A model generated the notes under the pieces. It saw nothing but the letters and a program-made list of their open reading frames with translations. It made no database searches and was not told where the DNA came from. 56,595 nt of DNA from an uncultured Bacteroidota bacterium. GTDB lineage: Bacteria > Bacteroidota > Bacteroidia > Chitinophagales > Chitinophagaceae. The position numbers and the translations under genes are program-made. The stretch's first letter is position 1, and each line of letters starts with the position of its first letter. Of this stretch, positions 394-29,388 are shown one piece after another. The stretch lies in the NCBI GenBank assembly GCA_903903635.1, contig CAIUZK010000183.1:1-56595 (forward strand), given 5' to 3'.

Positions 394-550
394 AATAATA
401 ATCCTGGGGGCATTTTGAATACACCCTTACCCACGACACCAATTCCACATCATTGCCTCACCTGTTACCAGTTTCCGGAATTAATTTTTCGCCTTCACCC
501 TTTTTAGGTATTTTCCAATTAATTGGCATTAAAATAAACAATCCAATTTA

Positions 551-582
551 TTTGGAATATGCAATTATTAAATTTACCTTTG
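551..582 (+). promoter_or_regulatory. Promoter of repeat cluster A
   Basis: TTTG at 551-554 and TACCTTTG at 575-582, separated by exactly 20 bp, match the Bacteroidota sigma-70-type consensus TTTG-N19/20-TAnnTTTG. No credible gene follows. The first 97-bp repeat unit begins exactly 100 bp after the end of the -7 box, the same distance as in cluster C. Confidence 0.7.
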
Positions 583-681
583 ACACAAAATTCAACCATA
601 AACATTATATAATCCTATCATAATGCCGCTAATCCCAAAATTCATATACCAGATTCATTGTTATTACCATTGCACATAAAA

Positions 682-778
682 TTGCACACCTTGAGTCAAA
701 ATGCGCAATTATTTCAATCTAACACATTGAAAATCAATAAAAATCTGTGCAACAAATTATTTCTTGCGCAGTGTGCAA
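682..778 (+). repeat. 97-bp repeat unit A1
   Basis: The unit starts TTGCACAC and ends GTGTGCAA (perfect 8-bp terminal inverted repeats). Internal conserved blocks are AAAATGCGCAATTA, TCAATAAAAA, CTGTGCAACAAA and TTGCGCA. TGCGCAA near the left end can pair with TTGCGCA next to the right end, extending the terminal stem with a one-sided bulge of about 12 nt. It is 97 bp, like six other copies in this window. Confidence 0.75.
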
Positions 779-1046
779 TTGCACTCCTAAATCAGATTGG
801 CAAAGTAAAAATTCTGACCCAACGTACTAATCAACCTGTCAACTTTTCAACTAATCAACTTACCCCTCCTATCCGCTTTGTGTCCTTGGTTACCCTATGT
901 TTCGTAAACAAAATCACATTGTGAACCTTGTGTATACTTGGTGTTCTTAGTGGTAAAATGTTTTGGTTTTAATGATTTTATCCATCAACCTGTCGCATTT
1001 GAAATTCTGTAAATTCAACAATTCTAAAAATTCTGATTCAGACATT

Positions 1047-1143
1047 TTGCACACTTACTCCCAAAATGCGCAATTATTTAAATCTAACACATTGAAAATC
1101 AATAAAAATCTGTGCAACAAATTATTTCTTGCGCAGTGTGCAA
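1047..1143 (+). repeat. 97-bp repeat unit A2
   Basis: Nearly identical to unit A1 (differences cluster in the loop after the left terminal repeat and one base later) and the same length. It is preceded by an ATTCTGATTCAGACA flank, also found before units A3 and B2. This is the second of three same-strand copies downstream of the promoter at 551-582. Confidence 0.75.
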
Positions 1144-1150
1144 TTCAATA

Positions 1151-1260
1151 ATTGGAGTAAACAAATTATCATTTCACAAATAAATTCTGTTAATTCTACT
1201 TCGTGCGCCAAAGCTTCTTCAGCGACGGCGCACAATTCTGAAAATTCTGATTCAGACATT
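1151..1260 (+). repeat. 110-bp conserved linker of cluster A
   Basis: This stretch between units A2 and A3 is closely matched, at the identical length of 110 bp, by 19507-19616 on the minus strand in cluster B. It contains the stem GTGCGCC (1203-1209) / GGCGCAC (1227-1233). In cluster B the left arm is GTGCGTC, which keeps pairing through a U-G wobble. It ends with TTCTGATTCAGACATT directly before the next unit. Confidence 0.65.
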
Positions 1261-1357
1261 TTGCACACTCACCATCAAAATGCGCAACAAAACAAGGTTA
1301 ATTGCTTGAAAACCAACAAAAAACTGTGCAACTATTTATTTTCAAAATAGTGTGCAA
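1261..1357 (+). repeat. 97-bp repeat unit A3
   Basis: The most divergent copy: the right-hand TTGCGCA block is lost (TTCAAAATA instead), yet the 8-bp terminal inverted repeats and the 97-bp length are kept. About 100 bp after it resemble the flank of A1 (TGCACTCCTAAATCAGA and following), so the repeated block is longer than the unit here. Confidence 0.7.
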
Positions 1358-1470: not shown

Positions 1471-1568
1471 GTACGTCATTGTCAGTGAATTAATCAAAAA
1501 CAGATAAAAAAACGGGTAGTAAAAAAAATTTTTCTTATCTTTCCACATAGTTCATAAATTTGATAATT

Positions 1569-4121
1569 ATGAGACAAGAAAAATTACATAATGAGCCTAT
1601 AACCGCTATTAACAAAATGAGTATGAAACACCTTATCAGGAGATTTTTTATCTTGGGCATACTAGCTTTTGCTTTGCCCTTTACCGGCTGGTCACAACCT
1701 GTATTTATTGGAGGAAGTACATTAGCTGTATGCCAGAATTCACCTGCACACGATATCAGCAGTCTGTTGATGATTATTGATCCAAATATCGGGTCCAATG
1801 ATACATGGAGTGTATCCGTTGGCCCTGTAAATGGTTTGCTGGCAGGATTCCCTGTAACATTAATGTCTTTTGGATCAAGTCTTACACCCGGCCCTGGATT
1901 AACTTATACTCCCAATCCAGGCTATATCGGTCTCGATTCATTTTCAATTTTGATTGATGATGGTTTGGGGAATATTGATTCGAATGTAATCATAGTTACT
2001 GTTACAGCGCCTCCTGTGGTAAGCCCTATTACCGGGCTCAACACCGTGTGTATAGGCGGAACTATTACACTTACTGATGCAACAGGAGGCGGAATATGGT
2101 CAGCAAGTAATGGTCATGGAACCTTAGCAGGAGGAAATGTAACCGGAGTATCAGTAGGTAATGATACAATTAGTTATGTTGTTACAGGTACTGGTGGCTG
2201 CACTACTACTGCAACACTTGACGTCGCTGTAACCCTGCTACCTTCTGCCGGCACAATATATGGTCCTAATCATGTATGCCCTGGTTTTACAATTACCGAT
2301 TTTAACGCGACAGCCGGCGGGGTTTGGTCCATGACAAATGGCCGTGCCACTATTAATACAACAGGAGATGTATTGGGTATTACACCAGGCCTGGATACAA
2401 TAATATATACCGTTACTTTGCCTTGCGGTGTAGGTCGGGATTCCTTTGTTGTTACCATCGATCCGCTACCAACTTCAGGTACAATATTTGGTCTTTCTAC
2501 TGTTTGTGTTGGCGCCACTATTACACTCACAGATCCGGTTCCCGGTGGAAGCTGGTTTCGGGTGAACGGGCACACAAATGTAAGCGGAACAGGCGTTGTT
2601 ACAGGGGTTTCAGCCGGCGTTGATACTATTATCTACAGCGTAATTAATTCATGCGGCGCTGCAAATTCATTATTTACAGTAACCGTAAATCCTTTACCTA
2701 ATTCAGGTATTATATCAGGGCCTTCTGCTGTCTGCATAGGTTCCAGCATAACATTGACGGATCCATCACCAGGAGGAACCTGGAATGCTACTAATTTAAG
2801 AGCTGTCGTAACAGGAGGAGTAGTTTCCGGAATATCTGTTGGCATGGATACTATTACTTATAGAGTAATCAACAGTTGCGGAATTGCTACTTCTATGTAT
2901 CCCGTTGCAGTCAATCCACTGCCTTTTGCCGGCGCTGTTGCTGGATTAACAGCGGTATGCGTGGGCTCTACTATTACCATGACTGACCCTACTGCAGCAG
3001 GCCCCGGAATCTGGAGCATGACCAACGCCAGAGCAACTATTAATACTTCGGGTGTTGTCACAGGTGTAACAGCAGGAGCGGATACAGTAAAATATACTTA
3101 TACCAATTCATGCGGAACAGACATTGCTACCTATCCGATGACAGTGAACCCATTGCCTAATGCAGGATGGATAACTGGTCGCACTTCATTTTGCAACAGA
3201 GACACTATACATCTGTCTGACACTGTAACAGGAGGTCATTGGAGAACTACATCTTCTAATATTACAGTTGATTCAATGACTGGTGTTATTACAGGTGTAT
3301 CGGCCGGTACTGCCAGGATCACTTATACCTATACCAATTTCTGCGGAACATTGTTTGTAACACGTCTTGATACAATCATTGCACTTCCTGATTCAGGTCT
3401 TATTTCCGGCCCGGGCAGTGTATGCGTTGGCGCACATATTACATTGACCGACCCGGTAGCTGGTGGTGCATGGAGCAGTGGCAGCACAGGTGTGGGAACT
3501 ATAAACTCAGGAGGTGTATTGACAGGCGTTTCTGGCGGCATAGATCACATCAGCTATACAGTTACCAATGTATGCCGTTCTGCTATTGCTGTGTATACAG
3601 TAACAGTAAATACGGTACCTGTAGCAGGAACTATCTTCGGCGATTCGGCAATATGCCCCGATGTACTTGTTGCGTTTCACGATACATTCCCTGGCGGTAT
3701 CTGGACATTGGCAAATGATAGTGCGCTCATTGATGATTCAGGCGTTGTTGCCGGAGTTCATGCCGGACTTGATACAATTATCTATACCATTACTAATGCC
3801 TGTGGTTCAACCAGTACAACTAAAGCGATAGTGATTTTGTCGCTCTATGTATGCTGGCATACAGGCGTACAGCCAGTTAACGGCCCGGGCGAATTATGCA
3901 ACATTTACCCTAACCCGGCTATGGATGAAGTAACAATTAAGGTTGAGCATGGCGCCTATAATAAATGTACCATTACCAACCAGCTAGGACAACTAATTCT
4001 GGAACGGCCATTGACCACAAGCGAAACCGATATAAATGTCAGTTCGTTTGCACCCGGATTGTATAATATTACGCTGACCGGAGAAAGTGGTATTGAAACC
4101 AGGAAAATGATCAGGCAATAA
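1569..4121 (+). CDS. T9SS-secreted Ig-like repeat protein (850 aa)
   Basis: Secreted surface or extracellular protein, probably adhesive; no enzyme domain is visible. An N-terminal hydrophobic signal (ending near ...FTGWSQ) is followed by a region with cadherin-like features (TPNPGYIGLDSF) to about residue 150. Eight tandem repeats of about 75 residues follow (about 150-760), each with the pattern VCxGxxITLTD...GGxW...GVVTGVSAGxDTIxY...CG and two conserved cysteines. The last ~80 residues are a T9SS type A sorting domain (IYPNPAMDE...GLYNITL). The first ATG is at 1569; ATGs at 1617 and 1623 also leave an intact signal peptide, so the start is uncertain. TATCTTTC at 1536-1543 may be the -7 box. 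The repeats resemble those of the giant adhesin at 32418-39101, suggesting exchange or common origin. Confidence 0.85.
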   Translation: MRQEKLHNEPITAINKMSMKHLIRRFFILGILAFALPFTGWSQPVFIGGSTLAVCQNSPAHDISSLLMIIDPNIGSNDTWSVSVGPVNGLLAGFPVTLMSFGSSLTPGPGLTYTPNPGYIGLDSFSILIDDGLGNIDSNVIIVTVTAPPVVSPITGLNTVCIGGTITLTDATGGGIWSASNGHGTLAGGNVTGVSVGNDTISYVVTGTGGCTTTATLDVAVTLLPSAGTIYGPNHVCPGFTITDFNATAGGVWSMTNGRATINTTGDVLGITPGLDTIIYTVTLPCGVGRDSFVVTIDPLPTSGTIFGLSTVCVGATITLTDPVPGGSWFRVNGHTNVSGTGVVTGVSAGVDTIIYSVINSCGAANSLFTVTVNPLPNSGIISGPSAVCIGSSITLTDPSPGGTWNATNLRAVVTGGVVSGISVGMDTITYRVINSCGIATSMYPVAVNPLPFAGAVAGLTAVCVGSTITMTDPTAAGPGIWSMTNARATINTSGVVTGVTAGADTVKYTYTNSCGTDIATYPMTVNPLPNAGWITGRTSFCNRDTIHLSDTVTGGHWRTTSSNITVDSMTGVITGVSAGTARITYTYTNFCGTLFVTRLDTIIALPDSGLISGPGSVCVGAHITLTDPVAGGAWSSGSTGVGTINSGGVLTGVSGGIDHISYTVTNVCRSAIAVYTVTVNTVPVAGTIFGDSAICPDVLVAFHDTFPGGIWTLANDSALIDDSGVVAGVHAGLDTIIYTITNACGSTSTTKAIVILSLYVCWHTGVQPVNGPGELCNIYPNPAMDEVTIKVEHGAYNKCTITNQLGQLILERPLTTSETDINVSSFAPGLYNITLTGESGIETRKMIRQ

Positions 4122-19196: not shown

Positions 19197-19293
19197 TTGC
19201 ACACTGCGCAAGAAATATTTTGTAGCGCATTTTTTTATTGAAAATCAGGTGATTAGACACTGAAAATTGCACATTTTGGGGTTGAGTGTGCAA
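19197..19293 (-). repeat. 97-bp repeat unit B3
   Basis: Read on the minus strand it has the same 8-bp terminal inverted repeats, AAAATGTGCAATT, TCAATAAAAA, ACAAAATATTTCTTGCGCA blocks and exact 97-bp length as the cluster A and C units. It is third in order from its promoter. Confidence 0.75.
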
Positions 19294-19409: not shown

Positions 19410-19506
19410 TTGCACACTGCGCAAGAAATATTTTGTTGCACAGTTTTTTATTGAAAATCAGGCGATTAGACACTGAAAATTGCGCATTTTGGGGCTGAGT
19501 GTGCAA
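19410..19506 (-). repeat. 97-bp repeat unit B2
   Basis: Minus-strand copy closest to the consensus: both TGCGCAA and TTGCGCA blocks and both terminal repeats are intact. It is preceded (on the minus strand) by the 110-bp linker shared with cluster A. Confidence 0.75.
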
Positions 19507-19730: not shown

Positions 19731-19828
19731 TTGCACATTGCTGTGCAAGAAAAATATTTGCGCACATTTTTATTGGTTATCAATGATTTAGCTGGTGAAA
19801 ATTGCGCATTTTGGGGTTGAGTGTGCAA
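19731..19828 (-). repeat. 98-bp repeat unit B1
   Basis: First unit after the cluster B promoter. The outer right arm is changed (CAATGTGCAA), with a one-base length difference. The ATGCGCAATT and CAATAAAAA blocks are conserved. Confidence 0.7.
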
Positions 19829-19909: not shown

Positions 19910-19941
19910 CAAAGGTACAATGCTAAACCGAAAATTCCAAA
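19910..19941 (-). promoter_or_regulatory. Promoter of repeat cluster B
   Basis: On the minus strand TTTG (19941-19938), 20-bp spacer, TACCTTTG (19917-19910). The surrounding ATTTTATTTGG context matches the promoters at 551 and 23190. No gene follows before the repeat units. Confidence 0.7.
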
Positions 19942-20029
19942 TAAAATGGATATTTTATTTTGGTGATAATGTGTGTCTTTATGATGGATGAGGGCGAGGG
20001 TGGATTAGTGGTTAGAATTTGTTCGGAAG

Positions 20030-20333: not shown

Positions 20334-22535
20334 TTAGTAAGTTATTGTTATCTGGCCATTCCCGTTTGCCCAACGGGAGTTTGTGCCGGGAGTATTGGTT
20401 CCGGTAAAACCCGCCCCTGTGATGTAGGAAGAACCACCGCCGCCGCCGCCATAATTAGTGGTGCTGTTTGTGGCTCCACCGCCACCGCCGCCAAAATAGC
20501 CACCGCCGCCGCCACCGCCGCCGGCTCCGTAGCGATAGGCATCGATGCCCGGAGTAGATCCGGATGCCCCGGAACTGTTGGCGCCATTACCGCCTGACAA
20601 AGCACCACCACCTGAGCCATTTGCATCGCAGCCTGTGCTACCTGCACCACCAGCCGATACAGTTGCTGCTTTACCTGCACCCGAACTACCATAATACTGA
20701 TCGCCACCATTGGTAGCACCACCACCACCACCTGTAAGGCCGGCACTAAAACCAATGGAAACACCATTGTCGGAAGCGCCGCCGCCGCCACCTGCTGTAA
20801 CCCTATCTACGCCGGCTATCTGGATTGCAGACCTGCCACCACCCCTATGTCCATAATAATAGGTTGAAGAACTGGTTGGGTAGTACCAGTAATACCCACC
20901 ATACCCATAGCCGCCACCGCCGCCATAGCCATTTGTGCCACCTACTATCAGTGAAAGTACCTGGCCGGGAGTAACGGTAAGCGTACCATTTACAGTAGCC
21001 CCAGTTCCACCACCATCGCCATCAGAGCCTTTGATAGAGAGTGTTAATGATGTGACACCACATGGCACAGTGTAACTTTGTAATCCACCTGTAAAGGCAA
21101 AGACCTGGGTATCGTGCCCTGTATGCACACTGTCGGTATTGGAATAAGCACTGAATACCCCGCAATAAATGCTGCGTACACGGTAATAGTAAGTATGCAC
21201 GCCACAAGGCACAGTAATATTCCTGCTCACTACATTGCCCACACTCAGGTTGTTGTAGCCGGAAACAAAAGTGGTAAATGTGCTGTTGGTGGCAACATCG
21301 AGGTAATAGCCGGTTACATTTGCCGTGGGTGCGGTCCAGTTGGCGGTATAGAAGTCGGGCACTACTGCGCTTGGGGCTGTTGCCACAGGAACTGCGATAA
21401 GACTATCTACGCTCGTTGTATTGGAATAGGGGCTGAATGTACCTGAGCAATAAGTGCTGCGCAGGCGATAAAAATACCTGTGTAATCCGCAGGGTACCTG
21501 TACATTTTTTATCAGCACATTGCCTACGTTAAGGTTATGATATACGGAAACAAATGTAGAAAACAGGCTGTCTGCAGATACATCTAAATAATAGGCAGTA
21601 ACAGCAGCTGATGGCGCTGTCCAGTTGGCTTTAAAGGAGTCTAACACTACATTGCTTGCCGCCGTAGCAATAGGAGTTGCACTGAGTGGATCAACCCGCA
21701 TAACATTTGAATAGGCACTGAACACCCCTGTACAAAAGGTGCTGCGTAACCTGTAATAATAAGGGAGCAAACCACATGGCACTGTAACATTTGTTGTCAG
21801 CACATTGCCAACACTAAGATTGTTGTAGCCGGAAACAATGGAGGTAAAACCAATGTCGGTGGCAACATCCAGAAAATAGCCGGTAACCGGATCTGCAGGG
21901 GCAAACCAGTTGGCAGTAAAGGTGGTGAAAGAAACACCTGTTGCGACATCGGCATAAGGTACGCCTGAAGCCGGGACGATCATGACATTTGAATTTGCTC
22001 CGGGACCAGAGCAAAAGTTTGCCCTGATGCGGTAATACATATTGCTCGGATTGCAGGGATAGGTAACTGCCAGATTGAGTGCAGTACCGACGTTGATATT
22101 GTTATAGCCACTGAGCATGGCTGAAAAGGCAGAGTCATTGGCTACATCGAGATAGTAGGCAGATACATTGCCGGCGGCTGGTGTCCAGTTGGCGGTAAAC
22201 CCGGTATAAGATAATACAGATGTAGGGGCTGTAGCTGTGGCAATACCACCTCCATATACCGATGTCCAGCCTCTTGCAATACTGAAAAAGTTCATTTCAT
22301 CACAATCGAGGTTGTAGATCATGAGGCCGGCAGCAGGAGTGGCAATGGCATTACGCTGGGCGGTGGTCATGCGGGGAGGTAAAAAGCCCTGGGTGGTAGA
22401 TTGTGCATCAAGGATAGCTGATGCATTGGCAGGAGTGCCGGTGGCATTTATGGACATACCCTGGCCAAATGCAAACTGGCTAAACAATGATACTATTAAC
22501 CCTGATGCTAAACTTAGTAAATTACTTTTTCTCAA
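20334..22535 (-). CDS. Secreted fibronectin-III / Gly-rich fibre-like protein (733 aa)
   Basis: The signal peptide (MRKSNLLSLASGLIVSLF...FGQ) follows a TTG start at 22535; an in-frame stop lies just upstream, so no ATG is available. Residues ~25-95 carry a head segment seen in Bacteroidota fibre-like proteins (GFLPPRMTTAQRNAI, AAGLMIYN). Four fibronectin-III-like repeats of ~92 residues follow (TANWTAP...VTGYYLDVA...VSGYNNLSVGNV...YYRLRS.C). About 250 C-terminal residues form a Gly-rich domain similar to the PF12810/ALK-type poly-Gly fold (runs of GGGGG, ending GGGGGGSSY...GQITITY). No T9SS domain is visible at the C-terminus, so the export route beyond Sec is unclear. Likely an adhesin or filament. 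Confidence 0.78.
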   Translation of the reverse strand: MRKSNLLSLASGLIVSLFSQFAFGQGMSINATGTPANASAILDAQSTTQGFLPPRMTTAQRNAIATPAAGLMIYNLDCDEMNFFSIARGWTSVYGGGIATATAPTSVLSYTGFTANWTPAAGNVSAYYLDVANDSAFSAMLSGYNNINVGTALNLAVTYPCNPSNMYYRIRANFCSGPGANSNVMIVPASGVPYADVATGVSFTTFTANWFAPADPVTGYFLDVATDIGFTSIVSGYNNLSVGNVLTTNVTVPCGLLPYYYRLRSTFCTGVFSAYSNVMRVDPLSATPIATAASNVVLDSFKANWTAPSAAVTAYYLDVSADSLFSTFVSVYHNLNVGNVLIKNVQVPCGLHRYFYRLRSTYCSGTFSPYSNTTSVDSLIAVPVATAPSAVVPDFYTANWTAPTANVTGYYLDVATNSTFTTFVSGYNNLSVGNVVSRNITVPCGVHTYYYRVRSIYCGVFSAYSNTDSVHTGHDTQVFAFTGGLQSYTVPCGVTSLTLSIKGSDGDGGGTGATVNGTLTVTPGQVLSLIVGGTNGYGGGGGYGYGGYYWYYPTSSSTYYYGHRGGGRSAIQIAGVDRVTAGGGGGASDNGVSIGFSAGLTGGGGGATNGGDQYYGSSGAGKAATVSAGGAGSTGCDANGSGGGALSGGNGANSSGASGSTPGIDAYRYGAGGGGGGGGYFGGGGGGATNSTTNYGGGGGGSSYITGAGFTGTNTPGTNSRWANGNGQITITY

Positions 22536-22970: not shown

Positions 22971-23189
22971 ATTTTCACAAATTTCGATATCCTGTGCAAG
23001 TTGCGCCCAAACCTAAGATGCTGAACAACGCCATATATATATTTACCCTCTTGCGATGCAATCCTTCAGGAAATTCCCGAAAACTAATTCGTTATTTTAC
23101 TATTGTGGAAGTGGTTAGTTGTAGTGGGCCTCTTTTAGTTTTTGGCACACAATCCACTTAATTGCTATTAAAATATATTTTCCATTTTA

Positions 23190-23221
23190 TTTGGATTTTT
23201 CAGCCACACATCCTATATTTG
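23190..23221 (+). promoter_or_regulatory. Promoter of repeat cluster C
   Basis: TTTG at 23190-23193, 20-bp spacer, TATATTTG at 23214-23221. The first repeat unit starts exactly 100 bp after the -7 box, as in cluster A. AATCCTATCAT follows in both leaders (about 23252 and 612). Confidence 0.7.
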
Positions 23222-23320
23222 CGCCAGATTTTATCAAAGAATATAAATTAATCCTATCATGACACAACAATTCCAGAATACAAACTCTGGCTTCATTGTT
23301 TATTTCCATTGCACCCAAAA

Positions 23321-23417
23321 TTGCACACTTAACCCTATAATGCGCAATTAAACGCACTTAATCTATTGATTATCAATAAAAAATTGTGCATTAAAATATT
23401 TTCTGCGCACTGTGCAA
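23321..23417 (+). repeat. 97-bp repeat unit C1
   Basis: It starts TTGCACAC and ends CTGTGCAA, 97 bp. The ATGCGCAATTA, TATCAATAAAAAA and TTCTGCGCA blocks are conserved. The upstream CCATTGCAC and AAAATTGCACAC context is shared with unit A1. Confidence 0.75.
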
Positions 23418-23444: not shown

Positions 23445-23541
23445 TTGCACACTCAAAGCCAGAATGCGCAATTACTTGGAGTTAATAGCTTGATTCTCAA
23501 CAAAAAACTGTGCAACAAAATATTTTACGGGCAGTGTGCAA
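23445..23541 (+). repeat. 97-bp repeat unit C2
   Basis: Second unit of cluster C, 27 bp after C1, with intact 8-bp terminal inverted repeats and the CTGTGCAACAAAATATTTT block. The inner right block is GGGCA instead of GCGCA. Confidence 0.75.
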
Positions 23542-29317: not shown

Positions 29318-29388
29318 AGGTCGAAAGCGGATTCGAACCGCTGTAGCAGCTTTTGCAGAGCTGAGCCTAGCCACTCGGCCATCCGACC
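29318..29388 (-). tRNA. tRNA-Cys (GCA)
   Basis: The minus strand folds as a cloverleaf. The acceptor stem is GGTCGGA/TTCGACC (one G-U pair); the D arm is GCC-GAGTGGCTA-GGC. The anticodon stem CAGCT/AGCTG has loop CTGCAAA with anticodon GCA, and the T arm is AGCGG-TTCGAAT-CCGCT. The discriminator is U, as expected for cysteine, and CCA is not encoded. Confidence 0.95.

Follow-up and report, generated by a model that had tools for sequence, protein, structure and literature searches.

The window analysed here, a stretch of 56,595 nucleotides (contig C183) from an uncultured freshwater bacterium of the Chitinophagaceae (assembly GCA_903903635.1), raises the question of what a short repeat unit of almost constant length is doing in oriented arrays behind a promoter. 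An earlier note on this DNA had counted eight copies in three clusters (A, B and C), seven of 97 bp and one of 98 bp, and we confirmed all eight (Table 1). The pattern TTGCACAC-N65..95-GTGTGCAA matched six of them exactly, including the three units of cluster A, and gave no match in 100 shuffles; the other two, one of which is the 98-bp copy, lie outside this pattern. We then built a sequence-only model from 37 units of this genome (5.27 Mb, 275 contigs) and obtained 124 matches at a threshold of E<=0.01, dispersed over many contigs. Out of the 124 matches, 93 were 93-99 bp long, namely 58 of 97 bp, 12 of 96 bp, 12 of 98 bp, 9 of 99 bp and 2 of 93 bp (one of these two cut by a contig end), so that the near-fixed length proposed earlier is borne out across the genome. 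The others were shorter, some of them at contig ends, and partial, degenerate copies are also present. Allowing gaps of up to 600 bp, the matches fall into 59 clusters, of which 43 hold at least two.

Table 1 Units and leaders of the window, with the boxes and core of unit A1.
Feature	Position	Strand	Remarks
Cluster A leader	532..641	+	Bacteroidetes-type promoter and conserved 5' region; 81% identity to leader consensus
Unit A1, 97 bp	682..778	+	exact pattern; IHF consensus with 1 mismatch
Unit A1, box1	682-689
Unit A1, box2	702-708		TGCGCAA
Unit A1, IHF-type core	720-732		unit position 39-51
Unit A1, box4	746-752		TGTGCAA
Unit A1, box5	771-778
Unit A2, 97 bp	1047..1143	+	exact pattern, model match
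Unit A3, 97 bp	1261..1357	+	diverged right arm; exact pattern, model match
Unit B3, 97 bp	19197..19293	-	exact pattern, model match
Unit B2, 97 bp	19410..19506	-	exact pattern, model match
Unit B1, 98 bp	19731..19828	-	model match; IHF consensus exact
Cluster B leader remnant	19932..19960	-	93% over 29 bases to leader consensus
Cluster C leader	23181..23280	+	75% to leader consensus
Unit C1, 97 bp	23321..23417	+	model match; IHF consensus exact
Unit C2, 97 bp	23445..23541	+	exact pattern, model match; IHF consensus exact

Each cluster of the window has a conserved leader of about 110 bp or a remnant of one, matched against a consensus that we composed from several copies. The promoter elements of the cluster A leader are TTTG at 551-554 and TACCTTTG at 575-582. 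Across the genome we found 36 leader matches; for 30 of them the element that came first in the next 900 bp was a unit on the same strand, at a distance of 19-319 bp, for none was it a unit on the opposite strand, and six had no unit. A single strand was kept in all 43 multi-match clusters. The claim of a fixed orientation relative to a shared promoter is therefore upheld. As to the claim that no gene follows the cluster A promoter, a gene at 1560-4121 on the same strand, about 200 bp past the last unit, encodes a surface protein that ends in a secretion-sorting tail. Five of the unit-less leaders (on C223, C93, C211, C100 and C87) precede arrays of a different repeat, CCAGAAG, with 4-6 copies of CC(A/G)GAAG per array, and the leader is thus common to two array families; the sixth (C6:1093) has neither a unit nor a CCAGAAG array. 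On 24 contigs of the genome the pattern ACCAGAAG-N4..30-ACCAGAAG occurred 67 times in all, with overlap between some of the matches; the same pair pattern read backwards as a control gave none. Arrays of CCAGAAG also stand beside units of the 97-bp type on one strand (C218:30322-30849, C19:765-1450 and C6:12936-13198), which suggests that arrays of both types may share a single leader.

The unit model matched in 24 of 60 genomes, that is in 24 of 35 of the same genus (the genome of the window included) and in none of the 25 of other genera. From 17 other genomes of the genus we drew 83 matched stretches and left out 12 without the core pattern, which gave 71 units (70 where one further unit was too short); species-specific variants exist within the genus. 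The 71 units align without gaps, with box2 at -25 to -19, TTGATTATCAA at 0 to 10, TGTGCAA (box4) at 19 to 25 and a T-run at 31 to 36, the constancy of TTG and CA being no evidence because selection on the core pattern fixes both. Box2 reads TGYGCAA in many units and TGAGCAA, TGTGATA, CCGGAAA, GGGGCA or GGGAAA elsewhere, and the outer boxes follow it. Within a unit, box2 and the best right-arm site were on average 1.56 mismatches of 8 apart (2.44 with permuted arms), and box2 and the left arm, on either strand, 1.54 of 8 (2.27 with permuted arms); for neither arm was any of 2000 permutations as low (70 units, relatedness not removed). Box4 is constant in most unit types and may for this reason serve something besides the cognate protein. 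When 84,980 named genomes were scanned for the core pattern, 15 stretches were returned (the window's own record may be excluded), 14 of them in records of Chitinophagaceae bacterium or uncultured Bacteroidetes bacterium and one in Flavipsychrobacter sp. Viral contigs gave no match to the core pattern; one peptide pattern, a weak test, gave 66 stretches on them, among which no relative was confirmed. Such repeats were not described in the literature searched, most subscription papers lying beyond that search, so that their absence from print is not established.

At the centre of the unit lies Y-A-A-N4-T-T-G-A-T-W, the reverse complement of WATCAANNNNTTR, which we take to be the IHF consensus. 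An exact WATCAANNNNTTR was found in 25 of the 37 units of the genome (shuffles: mean 0.68, maximum 3 in 100 runs), and YAA-N4-TTG in 35. Among distinct units of other genomes it was exact in 28 of 69 (shuffles: mean 0.80, maximum 3), where only the YAA half is independent since selection fixed TTG and CA; there A stands at -6 in 71 of 71 units and YAA is complete in 52. In the window the site occupies unit position 39-51 in all eight units, with three exact copies and five with one mismatch. The best IHF match also falls at one fixed position in each of six CCAGAAG arrays, with no more than one mismatch in five of them, the corresponding figures for 500 mononucleotide shuffles being a mean of 0.75 and a maximum of 4.

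Units of 96 bp on four contigs (C94, C149, C156 and C272) follow a same-strand helix-turn-helix (HTH) gene of 280-306 codons. Pfam assigned its product to Terminase_5 (1.3e-7, above cut-off) and, below cut-off, to DUF1804. In PHROGs, three such proteins matched phrog_4151, 'DNA binding protein', over residues ~2-146 (3e-14 to 1e-17), followed by phrog_756 and then by several families of terminase small subunit (TerS). Among phages there were 24 matching records, all below 60% identity (26-27% in the 20 listed), and 8 of the 20 listed matches run into a gene annotated as terminase large subunit (TerL); in the Bacteroides phage BK010646 the homologue is annotated as terminase small subunit and TerL comes directly after it. 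At 6 of 8 loci of other genera a gene of 149-172 aa likewise runs into a frame related to the BK010646 TerL. With a single-sequence query this TerS-like family was found in 34 of 35 genomes of the genus (12 matches in the genome of the window) and in none of 25 genomes of other genera, and a TerS-like profile run against 247 further genomes of the order matched 8, including G188, of another genus of the family, with 7 copies. Judged by these searches, the family appears to be multicopy chiefly in the genus studied here.

Like the small terminases of Bacteroides phages (phrog_4151, phrog_756), the proteins of the genus have an HTH and a helical domain of ~145 residues in all; unlike them, they are multicopy, carry long and variable C-terminal tails and come without a large terminase. 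A tblastn search with seven TerL sequences found no relative at 62 TerS-like loci of the genus and relatives at 2 of 6 loci of G188; the six loci of other genera that had supplied query frames all matched the annotated phage TerL. Of 22 genomes of the genus, 1 contained PF03237, and that of the window did not (control positive in 6 of 14); next to the TerS-like genes of the genus we saw neither a large terminase nor a nuclease. The AlphaFold model of a TerS-like protein had a mean pLDDT of 71 and a pTM of 0.38, with no significant PDB match in a fold search, and PADLOC returned only a short HTH match to mad1. The TerS-like genes were also considered as the source of the leader and rejected, the leader consensus having matched none of the TerS-like loci of the genome. 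Contigs C116 and C74 both terminate inside a TerS-like gene, as expected of an assembly broken by near-identical copies. Many TerS-like C-termini end in LAA, AAA, VAA or AA, which resemble ssrA/ClpXP degrons, and a common tail, NRAQRRxLARTKAAA, is basic.

The position of the site relative to the gene is one-sided. At 17 of 30 TerS-like loci (one per genome, some of their units having gone into the model) the core model matched at E<0.01, always downstream and on the same strand. We extended this to 68 distinct TerS-like genes, 62 of the genus and 6 of G188, with a less strict core pattern, read on the strand of the gene: 40 of 68 had it between -130 and +650 of the stop codon and 1 of 68 within 650 bp upstream, the bases available being 34,217 upstream and 43,198 downstream, with at least 600 bp upstream in 41 of 68 genes. 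A core past the stop is present in 37 genes, in 12 of them at no more than 50 bp, and at the four TerS-1 loci of the genome that have a unit, the unit begins ~70-470 bp past the stop, among other repeats. Genome G010 has a 10-copy TerS-like family whose members, over the initial part of the gene, mostly agree at 93-98% per stretch and in which boxes lie inside the last coding part and homology among the copies fades near the stop codon. G010 has a TerS-like gene upstream of lpd, which none of 11 relatives examined has there (1.5-kb flank, junctions unalignable); of 21 other same-genus genomes that were searched, 20 contain lpd itself. The G010 family and the lpd locus show gain or loss of gene copies. 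By eye, no target duplication could be defined at the arrays of the genome or at the G010 copies, and the gene considered for an empty site (window 20334-22535) occurs in no relative (1 of 34, which is itself).

To relate protein to box we classed the genes on a single recognition-helix position and compared this class with whichever of three box types was most frequent in the 3' flank, calling a box when it had two or more copies and no tie; of the 68 genes, 28 were uncalled and 2 tied. P-class proteins, all six reading PRRTLH, went with TGAGCAA in 6 of 6 cases, R-class proteins (mostly SRR or SRS) with TGYGCAA in 26 of 27, and E/D-class proteins with GGAAG in 4 of 4. The respective Fisher values, which treat genes as independent, ignore phylogeny and refer to box types chosen after seeing the data, are 3.6e-7, 2.5e-7 and 6.8e-5. 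The single R-class exception is L317; L326 counts as TGYGCAA, yet its evident boxes read CGGGAGA, and genes with other boxes (e.g. L197 and L203) are uncalled. The contrasts are also seen inside single genomes (G010, G025 and that of the window), and for L188 and L190 we had written down TGAGCAA as the expected box before reading that part of the flank. The genome of the window contains a second, diverged TerS-like gene (on C15) with CCAGAAG repeats downstream, the repeat of the second type of orphan array; by eye it shares a 5' palindromic operator with TerS-1, and each type has its own box. In G188, loci L289 and L291 have repeats of CCAGAAG/CGGAAGT type downstream (3-4 matches each). As multicopy genes of G188 carry such repeats, the arrangement of a gene with repeats downstream may predate the genus.

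On balance we lean, by analogy with two known systems, towards reading the units as cosB-like sites to which the chromosomal TerS-like proteins would bind and whose dispersal resembles that of REPs. We propose them as predicted TerS-like binding sites because they have the layout of lambda cosB. Each unit would then be a nucleoprotein site at the level of DNA, not RNA: the central IHF-type site (YAA-N4-TTGATW) would bend the DNA so that the flanking heptamer boxes face each other, and the facing boxes would be held by the small-terminase-like HTH protein, as by TerS and IHF at lambda cosB. PMC4856287 describes for lambda that TerS (gpNu1) binds repeated cosB sites and that an IHF bend at I1 turns R3 and R2 together, their facing position letting the dimeric DNA-binding domain of TerS dock; as in the units, repeated sites for a small-terminase HTH protein flank an IHF bend. 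In contrast to lambda cosB, the units are chromosomal and multicopy, and have no TerL relative at 62 loci of the genus, and the features read from their sequence do not include a nicking site.

Under this cosB-like reading, cognate genes would carry the site just past, or within, their own 3' end, and units without a gene, such as clusters A-C, would be orphan copies of that 3' site, dispersed behind the shared promoter-leader as REPs are around RAYT genes. The arrays may be transcribed from the leader and would have spread as selfish or domesticated repeats; no mechanism of spread was found. According to PMC2817692, the REP/BIME and RAYT (TnpA-REP) system resembles the present one in its short, high-copy intergenic repeats, in a gene whose edge carries the repeat and in an apparent coevolution of protein and repeat; BIME-1 has IHF between the repeats, and the head of the REP palindrome is GT(A/G)G. 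The differences are that our HTH protein is TerS-like, with no Y1 domain match, that no Y1 (HUH) gene was found beside the repeat in the genome of the window, that the site stands on one side of the gene instead of in two inverted flanking copies, and that the arrays have a common promoter-leader and one orientation.

Several other explanations share part of this evidence. The earlier note had offered two readings, a structured transcript and a small mobile unit, the latter of which may still hold. Transcription from the leader promoter into noncoding RNA, with the units as its structured modules, would account for the promoter-led, single-strand arrays, the nearly fixed length and the complementary terminal arms of the genome's own units. 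Inverted arms of at least 6 bases are indeed commoner in units of other genomes than with permuted arms (42 of 70, 27.7 expected). RNAalifold on the 37 units of the genome predicted 14 pairs, however, and both sides changed in none of them, a result weak by itself because most of these pairs are invariant. A bulged stem can be drawn for the copies of the window but is without covariation in the 37 units, and the terminal inverted repeats, 8 bp long in the units of this genome, reach 6 bases in only those 42 of 70 elsewhere. At gathering score the sole Rfam match in the whole window is a tRNA (29318-29388), with none on the units; six sub-threshold matches were taken as chance. Comparing species gives the stronger evidence: direct-repeat arms occur in 31 of 70 units of other genomes (20.4 expected with permuted arms), some types carry direct repeats only, and an inverted arm of at least 6 bases is absent from 8 of 9 TGAGCAA units and 3 of 3 TGTGATA units. 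The stem is therefore not the common principle of the units, whereas, on the alignments, a repeated recognition sequence can be. Box2, which does not pair with the outer arms in the stem, moreover changes along with them. Taken together, the structured-transcript claim is not supported, and we regard RNA modules as quite unlikely.

The 8-bp inverted ends, the dispersal over many contigs and the species-specific variants would also suit miniature inverted-repeat transposons of the ordinary kind, which a conventional transposase would move in trans. The unit types without inverted ends, the strict orientation behind the leader and the recurrent linkage to a TerS-like gene all argue against such elements, which we hold to be unlikely. 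Our transposase search, which covered the Y1 family, gave two PF01797 matches in the genome, one on C203, a contig with no unit match, and one at C94:7074-7331; the latter domain has its nearest unit at 3.5 kb and a TerS-like copy 2.3 kb downstream. A site that stands right past the stop codon on the same strand at many loci, with partial and degenerate copies elsewhere, could instead serve the TerS-like gene alone, as its cis-regulatory or 3'-end element, the orphans being inert debris. But most orphans keep a length of 96-99 bp, many stand behind a conserved promoter-leader, and that leader is common to two separate array families, which makes this explanation improbable. We assign a similarly low probability to the idea that the sites are chromosomal packaging signals through which cellular TerS variants, every one with cosB-like sites of its own dispersed along the chromosome, would engage the TerL of an incoming phage and divert packaging to host DNA. 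Were it true, the system would be an anti-phage trick and a gene-transfer route at once, and the joint diversification of protein and box within one genus would be explained.

If the cosB-like reading is right, the system would be a second, independent solution of REP/RAYT type, derived from a phage packaging protein and without a recognised nuclease. Decoding of HTH specificity could draw directly on the boxes and recognition helices of the many naturally diverged pairs, and small-terminase genes with matching chromosomal sites can be tested for roles in regulation, in nucleoid structure and in interference with phage packaging.

Three further readings were considered and rejected. An integron attC site had come to mind for a site after the stop codon and for single-strand arrays; what we take to be the attC core consensus is absent from the unit ends, and the direct-repeat types could not fold as attC. 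A small peptide encoded by leader and unit would need a frame that, by eye, stays open in certain copies (e.g. L013 and L028) and runs into a stop in others. A replication origin was considered since ATATCCACA and DnaA boxes occur at some loci; they are not general. ATATCCACA lies in the TerS-like promoters of L195, L196, L203, L229 and L230, and L312, which has the TGAGCAA site of G025, has two copies of the perfect DnaA box TTATCCACA near its unit.

The operator upstream of two very different TerS-like genes has the form TCTATGATAG...CGTATACGG...TATCATAGA; sites like it were seen at L295:1-120 and upstream of the TerS-like genes on C94, C149, C156, C272, C116 and C74, and the G010 copies have a similar operator around CGTATACG. 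The spacers at 1020-1046 and 1185-1260 of the window, and those at many other loci, are filled with other intergenic repeats, namely AATTCTGATTCAGACA, a palindrome CGTGCGCC...GGCGCAC, a hairpin CCCCGGAACAAGGTCCCGTT and runs of TATCAACC.
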